64,000 nt of DNA from Phycisphaerae bacterium. Its GTDB lineage: Bacteria; Planctomycetota; Phycisphaerae; Sedimentisphaerales; Anaerobacaceae. The position numbers and the translations under genes are program-made. The stretch covers positions 188,572 to 252,571 of the forward strand of contig JAQTLP010000001.1 of NCBI GenBank assembly GCA_028714855.1. Direction: 5' to 3'. Below, one piece after another: positions 46,683 through 52,626 of this stretch. Each line of letters begins with the position of its first letter. Position 1 is the stretch's first letter. The notes under the pieces are model-generated. The model saw only the letters and a list, made by a program, of their open reading frames with translations, did no database searches and was not told where the DNA came from.

Positions 46683-47180
46683 CTACGGACCGAAAAAAGG
46701 ATTAGAAGACGGGGGTGAAGCTTGCTTCAACTTTTTGTGCAGCATTTCAAGTTCTTGAGAGCTTTGCTGTTTAGCTAACAGGGACTCGAGCTTTTGTTTA
46801 GCTATCCACTCCACGCGGCCGTCAAGACGAAGGATAAGATATTTTTTGCCTAACAGCCATGAACTGTGGTAGTTTTCGGTGTAAGCCAGAATATCATCCG
46901 GCTTTGACTCGTAATTTATCCATTGAGCCCTGTAAATCAATTTGCCGAGCCTGACGTTCCCTTCCAATTCTTCTTTGATTCTATCGATATAAGATTCAGG
47001 AGGGACAGAGCCGTATTTTTCACGGTGCTGCAGGACTATTCGGCTGAGATGCTCCATTGCCCGCATTGACTCTGAACGGTTTACCCAGTTTTTAAGGTTA
47101 ATCATTGCTGTGACGGCAACGGCTGTAACAACCATTACAGTTGCGGTGTTTGTTAATATGGCTTTTTGCCGTCTGTTCAT
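46683..47180 (-). CDS. Uncharacterised protein with N-terminal membrane anchor
   Basis: 165 aa. A short basic N-terminus and one TM helix ('ATVMVVTAVAVTAMINL'), then a soluble domain with charged helices and 'YLILRLDGRVEWIAKQKLE' near the end. The layout (TM helix, 'HREKYGSVPP', beta segments) resembles a pseudopilin or a small secretion-related protein but lacks a clear prepilin peptidase site. No SD. It converges with clpC (33-bp gap) and follows the RNase H-PurN fusion. Function unknown. Confidence 0.6.
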   Translation of the reverse strand: MNRRQKAILTNTATVMVVTAVAVTAMINLKNWVNRSESMRAMEHLSRIVLQHREKYGSVPPESYIDRIKEELEGNVRLGKLIYRAQWINYESKPDDILAYTENYHSSWLLGKKYLILRLDGRVEWIAKQKLESLLAKQQSSQELEMLHKKLKQASPPSSNPFFGP

Positions 47181-47220: not shown

Positions 47221-48303
47221 TCATGATTTTATTTTTACCCTGCCGTTTTGAACGAGCAGCTTATCTTCTGCGAACAGTTTTATGGCCTGCGGATATGCGA
47301 CGCATTCCTGCTCAAAGACCCTTGCGGCAAGCGTTTCGGGGCTGTCGTCATTTTTGACCGGGCAGCTCTGCTGGAGGATTATTGGTCCTTTGTCGTACTC
47401 ATTCGTGCAAAAATGCACGGTGCAGCCGCTGATTTTGCACCCTGCCGCGAGGACGGCCTCGTGGACATGATGTCCCCACATGCCTTCTCCGCCGAAGCTC
47501 GGCAGCAGGGCCGGGTGTATGTTCATTACGCGGCTTTCGTATCGGGGCGGTATTTTCCACAGGCACAGCCAGCCGCCCTGGACGACGAGGTCAACGTTTG
47601 CGGCAACAAGCTCACCTTCGAGGTGTTTGCTGAATTCGTCGATGTCCGGATAGTCTTTTTTGCGAATGATTTTTACGTTTAGTCCGGCGGCTTTTGCTTT
47701 TTCGACGCCGGCCGCTTTCGATAGCGAACTTATTACGACGGCGACTTCAACGTTCAGTAGGCCTTTATTTATATATTCGAGAATATTCATTAATGTTGTT
47801 CCGCCGCCGCTAATCAGAACACCGAGCCGAATCGGCTTTTTGTTTTTTACAGTCGATTTTTGCTGGTCGCCGGGTTCGTCTTCGATATCCTGTTCGAGGT
47901 TTAATGCCTGGTTAACGAGGTCATCGGCCTGCTGGTTTTTGTTTCTGGTGATGTGTTTGACTTTGCAGCCCTCGAATTCGTTAATTAAATCTACGGCTTG
48001 CCGGAAAAGCGGTCTGAGTTGCTCGCTTTTTACCTTGTATTGGCCGTTAATCTGTTTTACGAGCAGTTCGCTGTCACTGAAAATCGTCAGCCGTTTTGCG
48101 CCGAGTTGCTTTGCGGCTTCGAGCGCTTTTACAAGGGCAGTGTATTCGGCCACGTTGTTTGTGGTCTGGCCGAGAAATAAAGCTTTGGATTGTATTTGGT
48201 TTCCATTAAGGTCGGCCAATATGAAGCCGGCAGCGGCCGGGCCTGGGTTGCCTCTGCTGCCGCCGTCTGTGTAAACGGTGATTTGCTCTATTTGCTTCGG
48301 CAA
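47221..48303 (-). CDS. RNase HI fused to phosphoribosylglycinamide formyltransferase (PurN)
   Basis: 360 aa with two complete domains. Residues 1-~140 are RNase HI: 'VYTDGGSRGNPGPAAAGF', with metal-binding Asp13, Glu53 ('NNVAEYTAL'), Asp77 ('FSDSELLVKQ') and Asp127 ('NQQADDL'). Residues ~157-360 are PurN, with the substrate-binding 'LISGGGTTLMNIL' and the catalytic Asn261, His263 ('MNIHPALLPSF') and Asp304 ('YDKGPII'), which transfers formyl from 10-formyl-THF to GAR in purine synthesis. A ~17-residue charged linker joins them. TTG start with AAGGAG at 7 nt. The fusion of these two functions is unusual. Confidence 0.92.
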   Translation of the reverse strand: MPKQIEQITVYTDGGSRGNPGPAAAGFILADLNGNQIQSKALFLGQTTNNVAEYTALVKALEAAKQLGAKRLTIFSDSELLVKQINGQYKVKSEQLRPLFRQAVDLINEFEGCKVKHITRNKNQQADDLVNQALNLEQDIEDEPGDQQKSTVKNKKPIRLGVLISGGGTTLMNILEYINKGLLNVEVAVVISSLSKAAGVEKAKAAGLNVKIIRKKDYPDIDEFSKHLEGELVAANVDLVVQGGWLCLWKIPPRYESRVMNIHPALLPSFGGEGMWGHHVHEAVLAAGCKISGCTVHFCTNEYDKGPIILQQSCPVKNDDSPETLAARVFEQECVAYPQAIKLFAEDKLLVQNGRVKIKS

Positions 48304-48322
48304 TTATTCACTCCTTAAAACC

Positions 48323-48362: not shown

Positions 48363-49100
48363 TTAACTATCATGCGAATCGCTAAGTACGAGTATCCTCG
48401 TGCAGCTTGGGCAGCGGATTATTTCGTCCTTGGAGAGGAGCAGGTTGACGGACTCAGCGGTGATACCCATAAAGCAGCCGCCGCAGCTATAGGCATCTGT
48501 TTTGTTCTCCTGTTTATCAACCACCGCCAATGCTTCGCCGTCGTATGTTTCTGCGACGCGATTGAAAACCTGCAGCGGTTCGGCAGGTATATCTTGCATT
48601 TTCTTGTCCCATTCAGCCTGGATTTCTTCGATTTCGGCCTCGTATTTAGCCGCCATCTGTTCAGCGTCTTTTCGGGTCTGCTCGAGCGCCTGTTTACGTT
48701 CATCTATCTGGTTCTGTATATTTTGGCGTTCGGCTTCGTCTGCTTCAATGTCTTTCAGCAGTTCAAGAACTTGGGCTTCAATTTTGGAGTTGTCGGCCTT
48801 GGTTGTGTTAAGCTGAGTCAGAACCGCGGCGTATTCCTTGTTTGTTTTTGCGGCGTTAAGGTGGGCCCTTAATTTGGCGACCTCTTCTTCTCTGGTTTTC
48901 AGCTCCAGTTCGAGGCGGTCAGACTGTACCTTGGTTAATTGAACCTCTTCTTTTTTGGCCTCGTATGCGTTTTGAAGACTTCTGACCTGGTTTTCCGCAA
49001 TGATTACGTTTCTTCTGCATCTTGCAAGCTTTGCTTTTGCCGCCCGCAGCTGATTTTCAACACTCTGAAGTTTTATAAGGGCATTTAATATAGGTCCCAT
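48363..49100 (-). CDS. Coiled-coil zinc-ribbon protein (CdsZ/DUF164-like)
   Basis: 245 aa. A long antiparallel coiled coil (residues ~10-175) is followed by a C4 zinc ribbon: 'YSCGGCFMGI' and 'IIRCPSCTRIL' give two CxxC pairs. This is the layout of the zf-RING_7/DUF164 family (CdsZ), which is thought to be RNA- or ribosome-associated and is often next to an RNase H or GTP cyclohydrolase-like gene, as here. ATG start, no clear SD: a heptad repeat fills the leader. It lies upstream of the RNase H-PurN gene on the same strand. Confidence 0.85.
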   Translation of the reverse strand: MGPILNALIKLQSVENQLRAAKAKLARCRRNVIIAENQVRSLQNAYEAKKEEVQLTKVQSDRLELELKTREEEVAKLRAHLNAAKTNKEYAAVLTQLNTTKADNSKIEAQVLELLKDIEADEAERQNIQNQIDERKQALEQTRKDAEQMAAKYEAEIEEIQAEWDKKMQDIPAEPLQVFNRVAETYDGEALAVVDKQENKTDAYSCGGCFMGITAESVNLLLSKDEIIRCPSCTRILVLSDSHDS

Positions 49101-50667: not shown

Positions 50668-50733
50668 TTATTTTGTGCGTTTTTTTAAAAACACCGCACC
50701 GAGGCCGAGCAGTAAAAACGTGTCTGATTTATT
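50668..50733 (-). pseudogene. Orphan PEP-CTERM-like C-terminal tail downstream of the dockerin gene
   Basis: A 21-codon frame on the minus strand ending 'LLLGLGAVFLKKRTK', that is, a hydrophobic helix plus basic end like the C-terminal sorting tails of PEP-CTERM proteins. It overlaps the last codon and stop of the dockerin gene in another frame and has no start. It contains ACCGCACCGAGGCCGAG, identical at 52649-52665. Probably a remnant or a frameshifted end. Confidence 0.5.
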
Positions 50734-52420
50734 CTAAGCAGGCTTCTGGTGGGTCAAGGTTACAATCAAACCAGTGGAAAGCCATAATCGCAAAGTCCAG
50801 CATATTCACCTTGCAATCGTCATTCAAGTCGCCTTTTATCGGCTCGGTGCACTCGCCTCTGGTGACAAGCAGTTGATAATCACCAGTATCGCCATTGAAT
50901 CCAGCCACACGGATAAAATACGTTTTGCCCTTGACCACACTGGTAACAACTTTAGATTGCAGGTTGTCAGAGCAGTAGTCATCGTTGCAGGCAAGCTCTG
51001 TACCGCCGCAGGTGCTATAAACAGCCAGCGTGGTATCAAAATTGCTGCCGTCGGTTGTAATTGTAACCTGGCCGCCGGCATTTGGCTTATAGAAATGCCA
51101 CGTATCAATGGTGTCATTATCCGCACAACTGCTTACATCGGTGCCTGTCGCTCCTGTGGTGGAACCGTTGTAAGGCGTGTCATCTACGACTTCAACGGCA
51201 TCGAGGCACTCGTCATTAATTATGCTGTAAATACTCGCACCATAGAGTACCCTATTCATCATATCTTTCCAGACGACATAATTGCCGCTAATGGCAATAC
51301 TCATCGTGTCCACGTCATTCGGAGAAACTATAAAACCATCTCTGGTAGCCAGGTCATACCCACAAAAGCCACCACACGGCGAATCTTCAAAGACGACATA
51401 GTTACTGTTTGGCGAAAGATGTGCTTTTACGGGCGTACAGCCGGGAGGAATATCAAACCCTTCTCCCATTGACAGGTCATAACCCCAGAGTCCAACCATC
51501 TCTCCCCAGACGACATAGCTGCTGTTATTGGAAATAGTTGCCGGGCCTACACCATATCCATATGTAGGGATGCTAAACCCTTCTCTCGTCAACAGGTTAT
51601 AACCATGAAGGTCTTCGCTGTAATCCTTCCAGACAACATAGTTGCCGCTAATGGCAATACTCATCGTGTCCACATCATTTGGACAGATTATAAACTCACC
51701 TCTGGCTGACAGGTCATAGCCATGGAGTTGGGAAGTGGCGGACATATCCTTCCAGACGACGTAGTTACTATCCGGCGAAAGATTTATCGAGTCCGAGTAT
51801 AAGTCGTTTTGAGAGATGACAAATTCTTCTCTGGATGACAGGTCATAGCCATAAAATTTATTGTCAAGGGGCATTTTTTTCCAGACGACATAGCTGCCGT
51901 TATTGGAAACACTCTGTGGTTCCACATTATTTGGACAGACGATAAACCCTTCTTTTGTTAACAGGTTATAGCCATGGAGACCAGCGTCAGGTGGGGATAT
52001 ATTTTCCCAGACGACATAGTTGCCGCTAATGGCAATACTCATCGTGTCCACATCATTTGGACAGATTATAAACCCACCTCTGGCTGACAGGTCATAGCCA
52101 TAGAGTTGGTAAGTTGCGGACATATCCTTCCAGACGACGTAGTTACTATCCGGCGAAAGATTTATCGAGTCCGAGTATACGTCGTTTCGAGAGATGACAA
52201 ATTCTTCTCTGGATGACAGGTCATAGCCTTGAAGCCTGGGAATGCCCCCCATATTTCTCCAGACGACATAGTTGCCGTTATTGGAAACAGTGGATGAGTC
52301 TGCATCACCCCACGTATTGACGGTAAACTCCTCTATGTTATAGCTCCACGCCTGTGCCTGTGTCGGGGCCAGCACCAGAACCATTGCCAGCATCGCTAAT
52401 GCAAATACTTGTTTTTTCAT
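50729..52420 (-). CDS. Secreted beta-propeller-like repeat protein with dockerin domain
   Basis: 563 aa. Signal peptide 'MKKQVFALAMLAMVLVLAPTQAQA'. Residues ~25-380 are about nine TolB/WD-like blades marked by 'SNNGNYVVW' or 'ISGNYVVWKD' and 'GYDLS.RE.F'. Then comes a pre-peptidase C-terminal-like beta domain ('TWHFYKPNAGGQVTITTDG', 'YFIRVAGFNGDTGDYQLLV'), and a planctomycete dockerin type I-like end ('KGDLNDDCKVNMLDFAIMAFHWFDC') with a calcium-binding pattern. Likely exported and attached to a surface complex. SD GGAGGAG gives the start. Long DNA duplications lie inside; an orphan tail follows. Confidence 0.85.
   Translation of the reverse strand: MKKQVFALAMLAMVLVLAPTQAQAWSYNIEEFTVNTWGDADSSTVSNNGNYVVWRNMGGIPRLQGYDLSSREEFVISRNDVYSDSINLSPDSNYVVWKDMSATYQLYGYDLSARGGFIICPNDVDTMSIAISGNYVVWENISPPDAGLHGYNLLTKEGFIVCPNNVEPQSVSNNGSYVVWKKMPLDNKFYGYDLSSREEFVISQNDLYSDSINLSPDSNYVVWKDMSATSQLHGYDLSARGEFIICPNDVDTMSIAISGNYVVWKDYSEDLHGYNLLTREGFSIPTYGYGVGPATISNNSSYVVWGEMVGLWGYDLSMGEGFDIPPGCTPVKAHLSPNSNYVVFEDSPCGGFCGYDLATRDGFIVSPNDVDTMSIAISGNYVVWKDMMNRVLYGASIYSIINDECLDAVEVVDDTPYNGSTTGATGTDVSSCADNDTIDTWHFYKPNAGGQVTITTDGSNFDTTLAVYSTCGGTELACNDDYCSDNLQSKVVTSVVKGKTYFIRVAGFNGDTGDYQLLVTRGECTEPIKGDLNDDCKVNMLDFAIMAFHWFDCNLDPPEACLE
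51626..52232 (-). repeat. Near-identical internal duplications in the dockerin gene
   Basis: About 228 bp at 51626-51854 recur almost unchanged at 52004-52232, 378 bp (126 codons) apart, with a third shorter match near 51287-51360. In-frame duplication of blade pairs is the simplest explanation; the high DNA identity suggests recent duplication or gene conversion. Confidence 0.8.
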
Positions 52421-52626
52421 TTTCTTCTCCTCCTTCCAAAAGTTGTTAATATTTTTATCGCACCTGCTGCGCAGAAATACCACAGTGAAACTTATGGAAA
52501 CTCGAAGAATTGCTTATCCTCATCTTCCTACCTCTTCTCTTCCGCTCTTGCTATAAACCACTGCAAAAGCCGACACTATTATACATTTCGCTGGCTGAAA
52601 AGCAACGAAAATATGAGGCAGTTATT

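Follow-up and report, generated by a model that had tools for sequence, protein, structure and literature searches.

A putative bifunctional RNase HI–PurN fusion in the planctomycete order Sedimentisphaerales

Introduction

The closest fusion of the same type to the gene reported here is the RNase HI–CobC protein of actinobacteria (Rv2228c, MSMEG_4305), which is restricted to Actinomycetales and which, in MSMEG_4305, can be deprived of its CobC part with hardly any effect on growth (PMC7466739). Both fusions begin with an RNase HI of one structural type, as matches to 3hst indicate, and continue with a variable linker and an unrelated metabolic enzyme; the best NCBIfam RNase H family match of our protein, PRK07238, points to the same likeness. 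They differ in the C-terminal partner, which in the actinobacterial protein is an alpha-ribazole/acid phosphatase rather than PurN. RelZ (MSMEG_5849) likewise joins an RNase H to a nucleotide-metabolism enzyme, but its RNase H is of type II, its partner is an alarmone synthetase, and it forms a hexamer whose domains depend on each other (PMC7591505). Stand-alone PurN enzymes (TIGR00639, e.g., 3auf) resemble the fused PurN in fold and in the catalytic Asn-His-Asp while lacking an RNase H domain. Among nearer relatives, RNase HI–cupin proteins (in the family that we designate f5) and RNase HI–TIGR04076 proteins (in other Phycisphaerae) share both the fusion point and the zinc-ribbon–rnhA gene neighbourhood with the present fusion and differ in the C-terminal domain. 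As far as the literature searched shows, which yielded no paper on an RNase HI–PurN pairing, this particular fusion is undescribed, although its kind is already known.

The fusion gene and its two domains

In the window, the 64,000-nucleotide stretch of a Phycisphaerae genome that was analysed, the rnhA–purN gene occupies positions 47221..48303 of the minus strand and runs as a single open frame of 360 amino acids from a TTG start at 48303 to a stop at 47221; a Shine-Dalgarno-like AAGGAG (48311..48316, minus strand), read from the sequence, lies 7 nt before the start. An RNase HI domain of the RVT_3/archaeal type (residues ~6–135; 47899..48288, minus strand), supported by profiles, alignment and structure matches, is followed by a variable linker (residues 139–156; 47836..47889, minus strand) and a PurN (GAR transformylase) domain (residues 157–360; 47224..47835, minus strand). 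Upstream lies a gene for a coiled-coil C4 zinc-ribbon protein (PF02591/DUF164; 48363..49100, minus strand) and downstream one for a 165-aa product, hydrophobic near its N-terminus and probably a small membrane protein (46683..47180, minus strand). Elsewhere in the window, 50729–52483 (minus strand) encodes a predicted secreted protein that contains repeated "NYVVW" modules and ends in a dockerin-like region.

Both assignments are supported by profile searches. Residues 6–133 match the Pfam families RVT_3 (PF13456; E = 3.6e-25, 88.7 bits against a cut-off of 21.6) and RNase_H (PF00075; E = 1.5e-15, 58 bits against 25.8), and residues 159–341 match Formyl_trans_N (E = 1e-36); the NCBIfam equivalog for PurN, TIGR00639, scores 158.4 bits against a curated cut-off of 150.1. 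Formyltetrahydrofolate deformylase (PurU) was rejected as an identity, given 75.5 bits for TIGR00655 against a cut-off of 285.95 and an N-terminus that is RNase H rather than the required ACT domain. Membership of the RNase HI–CobC family (NF005567, Rv2228c) was rejected as well: the match reaches 123.5 bits against a cut-off of 326 and covers the RNase H part only, the C-terminus being PurN. The original prediction of one polypeptide with two intact catalytic sets holds on both counts, since the single open frame recurs in 118 loci and all seven residues that it named, the RNase H DEDD set D13, E53, D77 and D127 and the PurN set N261, H263 and D304, are present here and invariant in 95 of 95 distinct full-length fused homologues. 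Glu333 of the PurN domain is equally invariant in the 95. The N-terminal domain would cut the RNA of RNA/DNA hybrids and the C-terminal domain would formylate glycinamide ribonucleotide with 10-formyl-THF, and we infer that both activities work in the fused protein.

The linker is far less constrained, ranging from 7 to 52 aa among the 95 homologues with no invariant position; charged residues, Pro and Ala are abundant in it, and in some species it carries repeat-like inserts. The linkers of two loci (L061 and L129) contain an in-frame repeat of the STGILPVS...HGQDARAT type, and in another (L128, genome G020) an insert of ~27 aa, resembling a repeat element inserted in frame, sits within the fused PurN directly after the HPALLPS motif, beside the active-site loop. 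AlphaFold predicts two confident domains separated by a core of low confidence and predicted disorder (pLDDT < 50 at residues 144–153). The first domain matches the RNase H1 structure 4e19 (TMt 0.94) and the RNase H domain of Rv2228c, 3hst (TMt 0.91–0.94), and the second matches 3auf (41% identity, TMt 0.88). The overall pTM of 0.57 is compatible with, though short of proof for, the absence of a fixed interface. Separate production of PurN from an internal translation start was considered and rejected: the window's linker contains no ATG, GTG or TTG, and a linker start codon with an SD-like motif occurs in only 4 of the 95 homologues.

Copy number in the window's genome

Profile searches of the window's genome, on which any sole-copy status rests (2.31 Mb, 98% complete), recovered three formyl-transferase domains, namely methionyl-tRNA formyltransferase (fmt), identified from the ORFs of its locus, where its gene adjoins that of peptide deformylase, a 588-aa protein encoded in a glycan-type locus, and the fused PurN. 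The last is the only recognised PurN, no PurT scored above cut-off, and the fused RNase HI is the only RNase HI domain; a search for a separate purN or rnhA thus returned no other recognised copy of either in this genome. The genome also encodes a divergent RNase HII-like protein scoring 35.8 bits as a protein, above the PF01351 cut-off, and therefore the cell probably has a type II RNase H. This protein, at L026:1300-2445(+) in genome C10 and carrying a IDEAGFGPILGP motif, is the only RNase HII candidate found there.

Distribution

The fusion spans one planctomycete order, the Sedimentisphaerales lineage. Among 298 genomes of the class we found 48 co-linear full-length matches and among 392 genomes across the phylum 7, all from the window's order, with none in other orders of either sample; named records among the relatives read Phycisphaerae, Sedimentisphaerales and Anaerohalosphaeraceae. 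The fusion is therefore not one that many phyla already carry, the phylum sample placing it in a single order. Outside the order, among the matches listed, PurN aligns alone. A scan of 84,980 species genomes gave the best 80 of 563 confirmed relatives, and an independent, more divergent fusion may exist in another phylum. Spread by phage was also considered and rejected, no relative having been found in viral contigs.

That the fusion might be an assembly error or chimeric contig is an explanation to which we attach practically no weight. The same single frame and gene order recur in 118 loci, which represent 95 distinct proteins since some loci are one genome fetched twice, and these come from many independent assemblies, among which are several MAG chromosomes in a single contig. 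No relative has a stop between the domains. Sequencing error is therefore excluded, and the single frame called for by the original prediction is confirmed.

Neighbourhood and origin

The zinc-ribbon gene stands directly upstream in every fused locus with enough flank, and a homologue of the 165-aa gene follows downstream in most. In family f5, as in the outgroup orders, an rnhA to which no purN is joined follows the zinc-ribbon gene, and the same zinc-ribbon–rnhA neighbourhood is drawn in Fig. 3 of PMC3372290; fused loci, outgroup loci and that figure agree with the earlier suggestion that this gene is a frequent RNase H neighbour. The further suggestion that the fusion may have formed from adjacent genes has to be amended, since purN was no long-standing neighbour of rnhA. 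No ancestral purN–rnhA adjacency was seen; stand-alone purN lies directly 3′ of ileS in f5, the earliest-branching family (L162, L163), and in two outgroup loci (L165, L167), and therefore purN probably moved before fusing. In both f5 loci the 165-aa-gene homologue comes next after purN (E = 1.7e-21 and 1.9e-9).

The timing of the fusion is best read from synteny and the rpoB tree. In that tree, read without the row of genome G032, whose end branch of 10 and odd composition mark it as a wrong frame, f5 falls outside a clade of the fused genomes plus family f4 with a support of 100. In the PurN tree the stand-alone PurN of f5 falls among fused sequences (SH-aLRT 98), a position that taken alone would suggest a re-split of the fusion; an arrangement with a single origin remains acceptable under the AU test (p = 0.26), and the RNase H genes are too short for their tree to be resolved. 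Together, synteny and the rpoB tree suggest that the fusion has one origin, after f5 branched off. In the simplest history, a block of purN and the 165-aa gene would have left the ileS locus and come to lie behind the zinc-ribbon–rnhA unit, at its 3′ end, whereupon loss of the rnhA stop would have produced a single fusion event in the ancestor of most Sedimentisphaerales. Loss of the RNase H domain in part of f4 appears to have come later. In three f4 genomes (G039, G044, G048) purN comes immediately after the zinc-ribbon gene, without an intervening RNase H, and the only RNase HI in these three is an E. coli-type rnhA; RNase HI was therefore replaced rather than dropped. Other members of the family retain the fusion.

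The ileS locus itself also differs (L209–L234). Genomes of f5 and f12 encode a long IleS (~1055–1110 aa), adjoined in several by purN, and fused genomes encode only an IleS of ~950–1010 aa that is ~30% identical to the long form. The IleS switch coincides with the departure of purN from the locus.

Other additions occur at the same place. The RNase HI of five f5 loci (L130, L134, L136, L137, L138), in the zinc-ribbon neighbourhood, is followed by a C-terminal domain of ~100 aa with a predicted cupin fold, the predicted model matching 3cew in Foldseek (E = 1.3e-7). Four further loci (L135, L141, L144, L146) carry Cys-containing C-terminal extensions, of which two were scanned against NCBIfam and gave TIGR04076 scores of 36.5 and 29.1 bits, on either side of the cut-off of 33. 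With a cupin fold and TIGR04076 on the same RNase HI type, the PurN fusion is one of several C-terminal additions, and their placement at the same point in sister lineages suggests that the 3′ end of this rnhA is a recurrent fusion site.

Why the fusion is kept

We consider the protein to be a bifunctional fusion of single origin, with independent domains, kept through the joint expression of two needed enzymes, and give this reading a probability of roughly 0.7. The domains would fold and work independently, tethered by a short, unconserved, flexible linker, and we infer that neither affects the other; the fusion would persist because neither enzyme can be spared and neither has a recognised second copy, and because one polypeptide fixes their joint expression. 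A linker of 7–52 aa with no conserved position and predicted disorder makes co-expression of independent enzymes the best reading. In vivo, the actinobacterial RNase HI–CobC fusion acts in this manner too (PMC7466739). Linker and structure data, pointing to independent domains, thus favour the second of two functions proposed for the fusion at the outset, simple fixation of co-expression. They lend no support to the first, a coupling of nucleotide salvage to synthesis, in which RNase H would in any case have to be a salvage enzyme, as it is not.

Two other accounts deserve weighing. The domains could be interdependent, or one could regulate the other, so that purine supply would be tied to the removal of R-loops or primers; RNase H might, for example, be clustered by self-association of PurN, or PurN might be modulated by the binding of nucleotides or RNA. 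Most of the order has kept the fusion, and near-universal retention in a deep clade could mean that the physical link is itself beneficial and selected. In RelZ, the M. smegmatis fusion of an RNase HII with a (p)ppGpp synthetase, the domains are interdependent in this way (PMC7591505). Yet the length and sequence of the linker are unconstrained, the AlphaFold model offers no confident fixed arrangement, the RNase H domain was lost in part of f4 while PurN stayed, and RNase HI–CobC is functionally dissociated (PMC7466739), so that we regard a functional link as quite improbable. A more specific version, in which communicating domains would match purine-precursor synthesis to the RNA/DNA-hybrid load where replication or transcription takes place, PurN doubling as a platform for oligomerising or targeting RNase HI, seems to us highly speculative and less probable again. 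Pure drift, whereby the fusion brings no benefit, not even co-expression, and persists as fission is rarely needed, is unlikely too, if somewhat easier to entertain: in related lineages this type of RNase HI has received several unrelated domains at its C-terminus, and the same conclusion was drawn for MSMEG_4305 (PMC7466739). Against drift stand the few re-separations seen and the strong conservation of both domains, though the latter shows only that both activities matter.

Significance

The RNase HI–PurN fusion adds a second clear example, from a phylum unrelated to the first, of this RNase HI type gaining a metabolic enzyme at its C-terminus. Its unfused, fused, and RNase H-lost-and-replaced forms make up a natural series in which selection and drift can be asked about. 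For annotation it carries a warning, as one gene in these genomes bears two apparently needed functions.
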